32,287 nucleotides of DNA from the NCBI GenBank assembly GCA_945919465.1, contig CAMEJG010000024.1:1-32287 (forward strand), written 5' to 3'. The DNA comes from an uncultured Anaeroplasma sp. Its GTDB lineage: Bacteria > Bacillota_I > Bacilli_A > Acholeplasmatales > Anaeroplasmataceae. This document shows positions 12,188 to 27,736 of the stretch, piece after piece. The position numbers and the translations under genes are program-made. The notes beneath the pieces are model-generated. The model was not told the DNA's origin. It was given only the letters and a program-made list of their open reading frames with translations, and searched no databases. How positions within the stretch are numbered: the stretch's first letter is position 1; every line of letters begins with the position of its first letter.

Positions 12188-13492
12188 ATGAATTTATATT
12201 TTGTGTTAGGAATTTCAATTTTATCAATTCTAGGAATGTTTATTTGTATATTAAGATATCCAACATTAAGAATTAAAGGAATTACAATTGATACCTTCTA
12301 TCTTCCAATTTTATTTGGAGCAATTCTTCTTTTATGTATACCGATATTCAATAAAGATAGCTTATGGAATATTTTATTTTCAAATTCCTCATTAAATCCT
12401 ATAAAAATATTAGTCTTATTTATATGTGTTTCAATTTTATCTATTTCCCTAGACGAAGCTGGTTTTTTTAGATATATTGCGACTATATTTATAAACAAAT
12501 ATAATAAGAGTCAGTTTATGTTATTTATTGTACTATATATACTTATTTCAGTTCTAACTATATTCACCTCTAATGATATTGTAATATTAACATTTACTCC
12601 ATTTATCTTATATTTTTCAAAAAAAGGTCATATCAATCCTATACCTTATTTAGTTATGGAATTTGTTGCGGCAAATACTTATTCAATGATGCTTTCTATT
12701 GGTAATCCTACTAACATTTTTTTATCTACTGCATTTAATATTAGTTTTTTGGATTATTTTATTAATATGATTATTCCTACTATCTTTGCTGGAATATTTA
12801 GCTTTATAGCATTAATACTCTTATTTTATAAAGATTTAAAAAAAGAAATAACTATCTTTGATTTAGATAAAGCTAAAATTGAAAACAAATTATTATGTAT
12901 AATTTCTGGCATTCATTTATTTTTATGTACTATTTTACTTGCGATAAGCAATTATATTTTTCTTGAAATGTGGTTAATATGCTTAATATTCGCATCTTCT
13001 TTATTATTATTTTTAGTATGTTATTCTATAAAAACAAAAAAGTATAGATATCTAAAAGGAACAATACATAGAATACCTTATAGCTTAATACCTTTTGTAC
13101 TATCAATGTTTGTAATTATTATGGCATTAACTGATCAAGGATTATTCTCAATTATTAGAGGTTGGTTTGATTTGATTGAAAATGATTATTTAAAATCTAT
13201 TTCTTATTTATTTACTTCTACTATATCATGTAATATTTTGAACAATATTCCAATGACACTAGCATATAGTTCGATATTAAATGGTACTACTAATTTAAGC
13301 TTAATATACTCAACAATAATAGGTTCTAATATTGGGGCAATATTGACTCCTGTAGGTGCATTAGCAGGTATAATGTGGATTAGATTATTAAAGCTTAATG
13401 ATATTAATTATAGTTTCAAAGATTTTATGAAAAATGGTTCCATAATACTATTATTTATTTTAATAGGTGAAGCAATAGCACTTATAATATAA
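12188..13492 (+). CDS. ion transporter of the IT superfamily (ArsB/NhaD/citrate-type)
   Basis: 434 aa with about eleven to twelve hydrophobic segments along the whole length. The half-repeat motifs of ArsB-like permeases are present: TSNDIVILTFTPF near residue 127 and GNPTNIFLS near 170 in the first half, NNIPMTLAYSSIL near 355 and SNIGAILTPVGALAGIMW near 378 in the second. Substrate could be an anion (arsenite, dicarboxylate) or Na+; no arsenic genes are nearby, so I leave it open. Start has AGGGTGAG upstream. Divergent from the KDG operon; a uronate-related role is possible but unsupported. Confidence 0.8.
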   Translation: MNLYFVLGISILSILGMFICILRYPTLRIKGITIDTFYLPILFGAILLLCIPIFNKDSLWNILFSNSSLNPIKILVLFICVSILSISLDEAGFFRYIATIFINKYNKSQFMLFIVLYILISVLTIFTSNDIVILTFTPFILYFSKKGHINPIPYLVMEFVAANTYSMMLSIGNPTNIFLSTAFNISFLDYFINMIIPTIFAGIFSFIALILLFYKDLKKEITIFDLDKAKIENKLLCIISGIHLFLCTILLAISNYIFLEMWLICLIFASSLLLFLVCYSIKTKKYRYLKGTIHRIPYSLIPFVLSMFVIIMALTDQGLFSIIRGWFDLIENDYLKSISYLFTSTISCNILNNIPMTLAYSSILNGTTNLSLIYSTIIGSNIGAILTPVGALAGIMWIRLLKLNDINYSFKDFMKNGSIILLFILIGEAIALII

Positions 13493-14129: not shown

Positions 14130-14170
14130 ATGTAAAATTAATATTTTAAATTTTTTAAACTTTAACATTA

Positions 14171-14202
14171 AAAATAGTGAGTGTCTTTGCACTCACTATT
14201 TT
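14171..14202 (+). terminator. bidirectional terminator between convergent genes
   Basis: Perfect 13-bp stem (14171-14183 with 14190-14202), 6-nt loop, A-run before and T-run after, so it works for the plus-strand hydrolase and the minus-strand gene at 14209. Confidence 0.92.
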
Positions 14203-14208
14203 TATATA

Positions 14209-14778
14209 TTAATTTTTATTAAAAGATTTATTAATATCATTAACAATTAATTCAATTATTTCTTTATTAGTTTCATTTTTTAAAACTATATCTTTATTAG
14301 TGTTATTAAGGATTAATTTCCAATGATCATTTTCTGTTGAAAATGAAAGATAAAAATTTTTTCTTTTAGATATGCTTCCTTCAATGATAAAATCATAATA
14401 TTTATCCTCAAATACAAAGTCAAAATCATATTTAAGATTATATTTTTTTACAAGAAAATCAATTTCTATTATTTCGTTTTTAATTAGTGAATTCAACAAT
14501 GAAAATCTTTCACTAAATGAAGAATATTCTTCAATTTTTAGAAAAGCTTCTTGCTTCTCTTTTTCCCATTCCTTTTCAAGCTTTTGTTCATGCTCTTTGT
14601 CTATATTTTTTATCATTTTTTCTATTATAACTGTCATAATAATAAATACAAAGGCAATGGATATAAAGGTAATCATTAATGCTTGATTGGTTTTAAAAAT
14701 AATGGATAATACTGCAAATCCTATTGCTACTACAAAAAATATAAAGTTAAGCATATTAAGTTTTTTTCTATTTTTCAT
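14209..14778 (-). CDS. hypothetical membrane protein with G9 ribosome site
   Basis: 189 aa, no family recognised. Two membrane helices at about residues 10-28 and 32-52, then a very charged, probably coiled-coil stretch (residues 53-80, rich in E and K) and a soluble beta-rich C-terminal part. The ATG is preceded by nine G residues 3 nt upstream, which would serve as the ribosome site. The gene begins right after the secA terminator and I see no promoter between, so expression may rely on readthrough. Confidence 0.65.
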   Translation of the reverse strand: MKNRKKLNMLNFIFFVVAIGFAVLSIIFKTNQALMITFISIAFVFIIMTVIIEKMIKNIDKEHEQKLEKEWEKEKQEAFLKIEEYSSFSERFSLLNSLIKNEIIEIDFLVKKYNLKYDFDFVFEDKYYDFIIEGSISKRKNFYLSFSTENDHWKLILNNTNKDIVLKNETNKEIIELIVNDINKSFNKN

Positions 14779-14781
14779 ATT

Positions 14782-14790
14782 CCCCCCCCC
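14782..14790 (-). repeat. homopolymeric G9 tract at a ribosome site
   Basis: On the minus strand eight T (end of the secA terminator) run directly into nine G, then AAT and ATG (14778). The tract is the only possible Shine-Dalgarno element. Homopolymers of this length slip during replication. Confidence 0.85.
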
Positions 14791-14823
14791 AAAAAAAATT
14801 AGGTAGATTATTCAATCTACCTA
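14791..14823 (-). terminator. intrinsic terminator after secA
   Basis: Perfect 10-bp stem TAGGTAGATT/AATCTACCTA (14823-14814 with 14809-14800), 4-nt loop, one A, then eight T (14798-14791). Confidence 0.9.
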
Positions 14824-14829
14824 AAATAA

Positions 14830-17427
14830 TTATCTATTTAATCCATGACAGAATTTAAATTTCTTACCACTTCCACATGGACATGGCTGATTTGGTGTAC
14901 AACCTGCAAATGGATCATTAATTGCCTTTCTTACAGGTGATTTTTTATTTACTGTAGATAAATCTTGGTTAGTATGAAGTCCCTTCATTGAATCATCCTT
15001 TGGTTCTTCAACTACTCTTTGAACTCTAATTCTTGCATGCATTGCAGTGATAAGAATCTCTTCGTTCATCTTCTTATTTAGCTTTTCAAATCTATTATAG
15101 CCTTCTCTTTGATAAAGCTCTAATGGATTTGTTTGAGCATAGGATTGAAGATGGATTCCTTGACGTAAACCTTGCATATCATCAATATGCTCTCTCCAAT
15201 TCTTATCTAGAATAGGAAGAATGATTCTTTTAATAAATAATTGCATTTGCTCTTCAAGAATATTAGGATTTTCTTGATATGCTTCATTAGGAATTATTGT
15301 CTTTAATTGTTCCTTTGCTTCATTTAATCTATTATCTAAATCTTTTGTTGCAGTTTCATAGATATATTTAATAATATCTTGATCATCTTCATAACTACGA
15401 ATAGTATCAACTGATAATAAATTATTACCAAAGATTCTTTCATTAAAAATTCTTGTCAATTCCTCATCATCAAATTTTTCTGTTGTAGTAATATATTCTT
15501 CAACCTTATTATCAATTGCAGAATACATTAGCTTCTTTAATAGTTCATTAAGATGTTCAGCCTTTACAACCTCTTGACGTTCCTTATAGAAGGTTTCTCT
15601 TTGCTTACGAACAACATCATCATATTTTAAAATGTTCTTTCTTGAATCATAGTTAATACCCTCAATCTTTGTTTGAGCCATAGTAACCATTTTTGTAAGC
15701 ATCTTATTTTCAAGAGGTAAGGATTCATCACCCTCATTCATCATATGAATAATATAGGCTAATCTATTTTTAAATGAATCACCACCGAAGCGTTGAATTA
15801 ACTCATCCTCAGTTGAAATAAAGAATCTAGAATAACCAGGATCACCTTGACGACCGGAACGTCCTCTTAACTGATTATCAATACGACGAGATTCAAATCT
15901 TTCAGTACCTAATACAGCCAAACCACCTAATTCAGCAACACCAGGTGCAAGCTTAATATCAGTACCACGTCCTGCCATATTTGTTGATAGAGTAATAGCT
16001 CCAAGCTCACCAGCATGAGCTACAATCTCAGCCTCACGCTCATGATTTTTAGCATTTAATACCTCATGAGGTAGATGCTCTTTTTCAAGTAATCTATGAA
16101 CGTGCTCAGAGGTTTCAACATTTGCAGTACCAATTAGAATTGGTTGTCCCTTTGAATGACGTTCCTTAATTTCTTCAATCATTGCCTTGAATTTAAATTC
16201 AGGTGTTAAGAATAATAAATCTGGTGCATCAATACGAATAACAGGTCTATTTGTAGGAATTTCTACAACATACATATTGTAAATATCTCTAAATTCCTCT
16301 TCTTCAGTCTTAGCGGTACCTGTCATACCTGAAAGCTTCTTATACATTCTAAAGAAATTCTGATAAGTAATTGTAGCTACTGTTATAGTTTCTTTCTTAA
16401 TTTCTACGCCTTCTTTAGCCTCTAGTGCTTGATGTAAGCCCTCAGAGAATTGACGTCCCTTAAGAATACGACCAGTTGAGGCATCAACAATTAATACCTC
16501 TCCATCCATTACAACATATTCCTTACCATTTTCAAAGATATAAACTGCCTTTAAGGCATTATTGATTCTATGAACAATTGATACATGCTCAATATCATAT
16601 AGATTATCAATATGGAAAAATGCTTCAGCTTTTTCAACTCCACTAGGAAGTAATGAAATTGTTCTTGATTCTATATCAATTTCATAATCATCTTCCTTTA
16701 ATGCTTTAACAAAGCTATCGGCCTTTTCATATAAACCATTATCATCCTTTGTAGGACCAGAAATAATTAATGGGGTTCTAGCATCATCAATTAAAATTGA
16801 ATCAACCTCATCGATAATTGCATAATTTAAGCCCTTAAGTTGAGTAACCTCATTATAATTAGGAACCATATTATCTCTTAAATAGTCAAAGCCTAATTCA
16901 GAGTTTGTAGAATATATAATATCACATGAATAGCACTCACGCTTTTGTTGACGATCTAGTTCTCTTAAATTTAAACCTACTGTCAATCCTAAGAAACGAT
17001 AAATATCGCCAATTTCACCATTTGCTTCACGTCCAGCTAGATATTCATTAACTGTAACAATGTGAACACCTTCACCAGTTAATGCATTTAAATATGCAGG
17101 CATTACAGCTGTAAGAGTTTTTCCTTCACCAGTTTTCATTTCAGCAATATTTCCACCATGAATAGCACAACCACCGATTAATTGCACCTCATAAGCCTTC
17201 ATTCCTGTAACACGATATGCAGCCTCTCTAGCTACTGCATATGCCTCTATTAAAATATCATCAAGAGTTTTACCATTTTTTAATAATTCTTTAAAATATG
17301 GTGTTTTTGCTTTAAGCTCATCATCAGATAAAGCAGCCATAGTAGGCTCAAGCTCTAAAATTTTTTTAGCAATCTTGCTACAACGTTTTAACTCTTTATG
17401 ACCTGAATCTAAAAATTTTAATGCCAT
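14830..17427 (-). CDS. secA: protein translocase ATPase SecA
   Basis: Motor of Sec-dependent export, 865 aa, full length. Walker A GEGKT at residues 100-104 (MKTGEGKTLTAVMP), DEAD-type Walker B in IIDEVDSILIDDARTPLIISG, the second RecA-fold motif TNMAGRGTDI and QLRGRSGRQGDPG. The C-terminus has the SEC-C zinc motif CPCGSGKKFKFCHG, which binds SecB-like partners or lipid. Upstream neighbour hpf is the standard Firmicute order; prfB, normally next, is absent on the downstream side. Own promoter and terminator. Confidence 0.98.
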   Translation of the reverse strand: MALKFLDSGHKELKRCSKIAKKILELEPTMAALSDDELKAKTPYFKELLKNGKTLDDILIEAYAVAREAAYRVTGMKAYEVQLIGGCAIHGGNIAEMKTGEGKTLTAVMPAYLNALTGEGVHIVTVNEYLAGREANGEIGDIYRFLGLTVGLNLRELDRQQKRECYSCDIIYSTNSELGFDYLRDNMVPNYNEVTQLKGLNYAIIDEVDSILIDDARTPLIISGPTKDDNGLYEKADSFVKALKEDDYEIDIESRTISLLPSGVEKAEAFFHIDNLYDIEHVSIVHRINNALKAVYIFENGKEYVVMDGEVLIVDASTGRILKGRQFSEGLHQALEAKEGVEIKKETITVATITYQNFFRMYKKLSGMTGTAKTEEEEFRDIYNMYVVEIPTNRPVIRIDAPDLLFLTPEFKFKAMIEEIKERHSKGQPILIGTANVETSEHVHRLLEKEHLPHEVLNAKNHEREAEIVAHAGELGAITLSTNMAGRGTDIKLAPGVAELGGLAVLGTERFESRRIDNQLRGRSGRQGDPGYSRFFISTEDELIQRFGGDSFKNRLAYIIHMMNEGDESLPLENKMLTKMVTMAQTKIEGINYDSRKNILKYDDVVRKQRETFYKERQEVVKAEHLNELLKKLMYSAIDNKVEEYITTTEKFDDEELTRIFNERIFGNNLLSVDTIRSYEDDQDIIKYIYETATKDLDNRLNEAKEQLKTIIPNEAYQENPNILEEQMQLFIKRIILPILDKNWREHIDDMQGLRQGIHLQSYAQTNPLELYQREGYNRFEKLNKKMNEEILITAMHARIRVQRVVEEPKDDSMKGLHTNQDLSTVNKKSPVRKAINDPFAGCTPNQPCPCGSGKKFKFCHGLNR

Positions 17428-26120: not shown

Positions 26121-26135
26121 ATGTTATCTATATTA

Positions 26136-26217
26136 TGCCATCTATCAAGCTGTAGCACCTTACTTAAAAGGTTGCTTGGTAGTCATCGAGCTTGCCTCTC
26201 GTACCATCTTTATGACA
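26136..26217 (-). promoter_or_regulatory. SAM-I-clan riboswitch aptamer upstream of priA-metK
   Basis: The minus strand carries the S-box core GATGA-N-TACC, AGCAACC and AAGGTGCTA. Helices: P1 TGTCAT/ATGGCA (26217-26212 with 26141-26136); P2 GGTA/TACC plus CGAG/CTCG; P3 ACCTT/AAGGT (26172-26168 with 26161-26157). The P2 loop CAAG(CT) (26194-26189) is complementary to (AG)CTTG (26151-26146), the expected pseudoknot. No P4 is visible, so it may be the SAM-I/IV variant type. A terminator follows. metK is in the same operon, consistent with SAM as ligand. Confidence 0.85.
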
Positions 26218-26222
26218 CAAGT

Positions 26223-27640: not shown

Positions 27641-27736
27641 ATATAGCGGACGCGCAAAACCACCGCCACTAATGTGTTCGTCTATTCCCAACTTCCCATG
27701 GAATAGCACTTAACGCGATTTTACTACTCTATATTT
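27641..27736 (-). promoter_or_regulatory. tetrahydrofolate (THF) riboswitch upstream of folT
   Basis: The minus strand contains the conserved blocks in order: AGAGTAG, CGCGTTAAGTG (about 27717-27707), a 7-bp hairpin CTATTCC/GGAATAG with GGGAAGTTG inside, ACGAA, GGCGGTGG and GTCCGCTATA. Outer helix P1 is ATATAG (27734-27729) with CTATAT (27646-27641). This is the RNA that senses reduced folates, usually ahead of folT or folE. The ribosome site GGAGG follows within 30 nt, so control may be translational. No good promoter fits between it and the preceding terminator; a TATAAT lies at about 27744-27749 without a -35. Confidence 0.9.

Follow-up and report, generated by a model that had tools for sequence, protein, structure and literature searches.

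In the DNA analysed here, 32,287 nt of an uncultured Anaeroplasma sp. (contig CAMEJG010000024.1, called the window below), eight consecutive T directly followed by nine consecutive G stand between secA and a gene for a predicted membrane protein. This T8-G9 site is best read, with a probability of roughly 0.78, as the junction of two ordinary signals, namely the end of the secA terminator and a strong, over-long Shine-Dalgarno (SD) site of the membrane-protein gene, so that T8 and G9 are separate parts that happen to touch. The site shows that a terminator tail next to a G-rich SD can mimic a designed repeat. The tract itself matters little, and the survey of long G runs across the genus outweighs it in importance. 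Anaeroplasma is a little-studied wall-less gut genus, and a literature search for it together with phase variation returned passing mentions only.

The T8-G9 site and its neighbours

Read directly on the minus strand, the order is T8 (14798-14791), G9 (14790-14782), AAT and ATG (14778-14776), equivalent to C9 at 14782-14790 and A8 at 14791-14798 on the plus strand. An earlier note on this DNA had the coordinates and run lengths right, with T8, then G9, 3 nt before the ATG at 14778. It had taken both homopolymers together as the ribosome site, which holds for G9 but not for T8, the U-tract of the secA terminator. The features of the region are as follows.

14830..17427, minus strand: secA, the upstream gene, 865 aa (Pfam SecA_DEAD, P-loop_SecA, SecA_SW, SecA_PP_bind, SEC-C)
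14799..14824, minus strand: predicted intrinsic terminator stem-loop of secA, TTAGGTAGATT-GAAT-AATCTACCTAA, 11 bp
14791..14798, minus strand: T8, forming the terminator's U-tract immediately 3′ of the stem
14782..14790, minus strand: G9, read as the extended SD site of the 189-aa ORF, one of 22 SD-type runs of at least seven G in the genus
14779..14781, minus strand: AAT spacer from G9 to the ATG, of fixed length and outside the repeat
14209..14778, minus strand: 189-aa orphan ORF, 189 codons, ATG start
14169..14204, no strand assigned (called on plus): palindromic terminator with a 16-bp stem, between the convergent 199-aa (plus) and 189-aa (minus) ORFs

The secA hairpin (-12.4 kcal/mol, z -5.45 vs shuffles) has the structure of an intrinsic terminator, a stable stem-loop of 11 bp followed at once by a T run, here T8. 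Nearly all Anaeroplasma relatives with sequence at this position have, behind the secA stop codon, a hairpin that ends in a T-rich tail, and its position is constant while the genes beyond it differ (both read by eye); the secA matches, by which the genus was identified, include A. bactoclasticum ATCC 27112. T8 runs as such are common, nine being present in the window when both strands are counted. In three relatives (L013, L014, L030) a convergent transporter-like gene comes directly after secA, and here too a CitMHS/ArsB-type transporter gene (12188-13492, plus strand) lies near secA in the same convergent orientation, with the 189-aa ORF and a 199-aa ORF between the two. As side observations, SecA of genomes G004 and G015 apparently carries extra copies of the SEC-C tail, the C-terminal motif matching three times in a single frame at the secA 3′ ends (L025 and L024), and Rfam places a SAM riboswitch (26121-26218, minus strand) and a THF riboswitch (27642-27733, minus strand) in the window.

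G9 is the sole SD candidate for the 189-aa ORF, as the earlier note had maintained, other SD-like sequence being absent before the ATG. It offers complementarity to the 16S tail at usable spacing, with a best modelled pairing of about -10.3 kcal/mol in a simple duplex-plus-spacing model, whose anti-SD was inferred from the other SDs of the window because none of the 27 assemblies yielded the 16S 3′ end. The spacing constants of this model are reportedly those of Salis 2009. Most other genes of the window have SDs that are AGGAGG-like, GGGGG or GGTGAG-like. The 3-nt spacing of G9 is the shortest among the 22 SD-type runs, the others having 5-10 nt, and this counts against the reading as a junction.

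Judged from its sequence, the 189-aa ORF, which starts with an ATG 51 nt beyond the secA stop codon, is a putative lineage-specific membrane-protein gene and an orphan. The first ~55 residues are predicted to form hydrophobic helices, after which come a predicted charged helix and, at the C-terminus, a small alpha/beta part; the single-sequence fold is weak (pLDDT 63, pTM 0.32) and too poor for a fold search. The codon score of frame 1 is 0.38 bits/codon (window genes 0.28-1.01), and one reverse frame scores 0.32. No homologues were found in genome contigs, viral contigs, phages or plasmids, comparison with relatives gave two very weak partial matches and nothing else, and Pfam and NCBIfam gave sub-threshold matches only. 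Since the ORF is an orphan, a comparison of orthologous SDs is impossible, which again counts against the proposed junction. Because the gap between hairpin and ATG is too small for a recognisable promoter, we propose that read-through of the secA terminator probably transcribes the ORF; anti-SD pairing would then allow ribosomes to bind at any one of several registers within the G run.

Tract length and slippage

The rarity of G9 claimed in the earlier note is borne out. The window contains 134 runs of G3, 13 of G4, 4 of G5 and then the one G9, and pattern searches of the 2.10-Mb assembly gave only two runs of at least seven G, both at SD positions: G9 and a G7 that precedes a 376-aa ORF, with 5 nt to its ATG. 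This ORF resembles a glycosyltransferase gene, its function having been read from the sequence and not from a scan. Half of the runs of at least six G in the assembly (7/14, including both of at least seven) lie 3-8 nt upstream of an ATG ORF. Across the 27 Anaeroplasma genomes the pattern GGGGGGN{3,11}ATG has 111 occurrences, compared with 28 of the reversed control, and the SD-type lengths are 77 G6, 17 G7, 4 G8 and 1 G9 (ratios 0.22, 0.24, 0.25), in a survey that pools species without phylogenetic correction and takes G6 sites by pattern only, with no ORF check. As these lengths are geometric, a single G9 is what the tail predicts (about 1.1 SD-type runs of at least nine G expected, 1 observed). 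G9 is rare for the base composition, yet its length is unsurprising given the SD position, and it is the longest member of an ordinary G-rich SD class.

Genes with an SD of this class include uvrB, an rnfD-like gene and others that are apparently housekeeping genes. For uvrB, the one G-run SD traced across species, the G7 is replaced by GGGGTGG in the closest orthologue and by AAGGAGG-like sequences in several others, the SDs being mostly ordinary. The order of terminator, G-run SD and ATG is also found before genes unrelated to one another, among them uvrB (L205) and an mntP-like gene (L244). The closest look-alike of the T8-G9 junction is a T-box-like leader terminator (L219) with the arrangement T9-A-G7-ATTAT-ATG.

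Translational phase variation, the idea of the earlier note, in which slippage at G9 would alter SD strength and so switch or tune the membrane protein in subpopulations, is unlikely. It can draw on the rarity of G9 in an AT-rich genome, on a product predicted to be a membrane protein, on poly-G tracts of similar size that vary in T. pallidum, where the tprL tract has 7 to 11 G with 9 the most common (PMC7864442), and on the M. tuberculosis espR 5′ UTR, in which poly-G alters translation by leader refolding (PMC11898584). G9 is indeed of the slippage-prone kind, with the long homopolymer typical of contingency loci (for G or C usually at least 8), and its length, at which slippage is known from other bacteria, counts against the two-signal reading. 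The supposed effects of slippage fare less well. Spacing would not change, as gain or loss of G shifts the 5′ edge only and the AAT spacer stays. Modelled strength would hardly change: the same model gives -8.9, -9.8, -10.3, -10.5 and -10.5 kcal/mol for 7, 8, 9, 10 and 11 G, a span of at most 0.7 kcal/mol over 8-11 G (about -9.8 to -10.5) with hardly any change between 9 and 11 G, and the modelled SD clearly weakens only below 6 G. This near-flatness arises because a homopolymer can pair in many registers and the 3-nt spacer is fixed.

Folding of the secA terminator hairpin is predicted to be independent of tract length, though the G run, folded together with the start of the ORF, is predicted to be exposed to a somewhat different degree (mean unpaired value 0.44, 0.32 and 0.40 for 8, 9 and 10 G), and a small structure-mediated effect of tract length may exist. 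On these models slippage would amount to mild tuning at most, and changes in tract length would probably be close to neutral for expression. The geometry of the lengths, with G9 inside the tail of ordinary SDs, a gene set that includes housekeeping genes and lacks lipoprotein enrichment, and the flat pairing model leave phase variation unsupported as the purpose of G9.

Other long G runs in Anaeroplasma

The 27 Anaeroplasma genomes contain 57 runs of at least seven G, assigned partly by eye to 22 SD-type, 10 promoter-type (L211, with TAGAAAT, by eye only), 7 leader RNA and 18 elsewhere. The promoter-type runs (L212 at 1101-1108, L213, L214, L217, L234, L241, L246, L247, L211, L224) are G7-G11 in length, come from several Anaeroplasma species and either touch a -10-like element or lie a little upstream of it. 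The -35 to -10 spacing is 16-21 nt in loci with a clear -35; L224 has AATAAT with a weak -35. The genes behind these runs encode lipoproteins and other membrane or surface-related proteins. Two paralogous lipoprotein genes of genome G007 (L213, L214) are preceded by G9-TATAAT and G7-TG-TATAAT, respectively, with a spacer of 17 nt in both.

A leader RNA of the form CCTTGCCTYYY...GGGGGGGGTAA...ATCC..GGATCTAGGT, with an intrinsic terminator behind it in which GGATCTAGGT is used again, was found in eight genomes (L206, L210, L216, L218, L221, L240, L255, L257), mostly upstream of lipoprotein genes, with L222 as a more distant look-alike and possible member. In 6/8 loci its G strand consists of an unbroken run of 8-9 G, and in L255 (GAGAGGGG) and L257 (TGAGGG) it is non-homopolymeric. 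In the consensus fold the pyrimidine strand pairs with the G run, which the MAFFT alignment misplaces, and ACCU pairs with AGGU of the terminator half; through this shared pairing the poly-G hairpin and the terminator would be mutually exclusive. The leader RNA is a candidate attenuator, in which the outer parts of the poly-G hairpin would compete with the intrinsic terminator. Only two pairs are changed on both sides, and the structure is therefore a proposal; the loci scanned gave no Rfam family at the gathering threshold.

Runs of G8 or longer (G8-G11) account for 16/17 promoter and leader runs but 5/22 SD-type runs (p=1e-5). A lipoprotein, called by a lipobox rule, is the first gene behind 9/17 promoter and leader runs, against 2/22 SD-type runs (p=0.004) and 9/120 background ORFs (p=2e-5); these length and lipoprotein p-values are optimistic because some entries are paralogues or orthologues (L213/L214, L210/L240). 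SD-type runs show no such enrichment over the background (2/22 vs 9/120, p=0.68). The promoter-type G7-G11 runs are candidate phase-variable promoters, and promoter and leader runs together are more suspicious than G9, forming a candidate poly-G surface-variation system. With long G tracts in promoter spacers and leaders, often before lipoprotein genes, surface variation in a commensal mollicute would become directly testable.

That the G9 SD is itself an outlier of a genus-wide poly-G contingency system, acting at promoter spacer, leader-RNA attenuator and ribosome site, is quite unlikely; if true, the system would have three levels, and slippage at G9 would tune the orphan membrane protein via translation. 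We consider it very improbable that G9 is instead a promoter element, a G run in a -35/-10 spacer with the true start further downstream. Ten G7-G11 runs in the genus do abut or just precede a -10-like hexamer, but G9 is followed by AATATGAAA, in which the scan found no TATAAT-like hexamer, the upstream T run is no -35, and the ATG is placed correctly for an SD. As a candidate poly-G promoter-spacer switch, G9 was rejected on the lack of a -10-like hexamer after it. Just as improbable is a sequencing or assembly artefact, with a true run made longer by false poly-G calls or a chimeric join: the assembly is a draft in 89 contigs, and elsewhere in the genus some G runs lie close to contig ends, but this site is in the interior of its contig, the position of the terminator relative to secA agrees with that in relatives, the ORF start is in the right place, and a convergent CitMHS-type gene lies near secA in L013, L014 and L030 too.

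Comparison with known systems

Read as a terminator end that meets an SD, the site can be set beside both kinds of signal. It resembles an intrinsic (rho-independent) terminator in the 11-bp hairpin and T8 just after the secA stop codon, but differs in adjoining the SD of the next gene and in a stem with only 3 G-C pairs. As an SD site, G9 lies 12 to 4 nt upstream of the ATG as sole candidate and is complementary to CCUCC with G-U pairs; it differs in being pure G9 rather than AGGAGG-like and in its short spacer of 3 nt.

The poly-G phase-variable promoters of T. pallidum (tp0126/tpr) and Neisseria (porA) have a G run of similar length upstream of a membrane-protein gene (PMC7864442), but there it stands in the promoter spacer, whereas G9 lies at the SD and comes from one genome. 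The espR 5′-UTR of M. tuberculosis likewise has poly-G in the leader, with a proposed influence on translation (PMC11898584); that tract sits in a G/C hairpin a long way upstream and causes the leader to refold, whereas G9 would be the SD itself. The vlp genes of M. hyorhinis (PMC10502178) also belong to a wall-less organism and have homopolymers ahead of surface or membrane genes, the difference being that their tracts are poly-A, lie in the promoter region and have been experimentally linked to ON/OFF switching.
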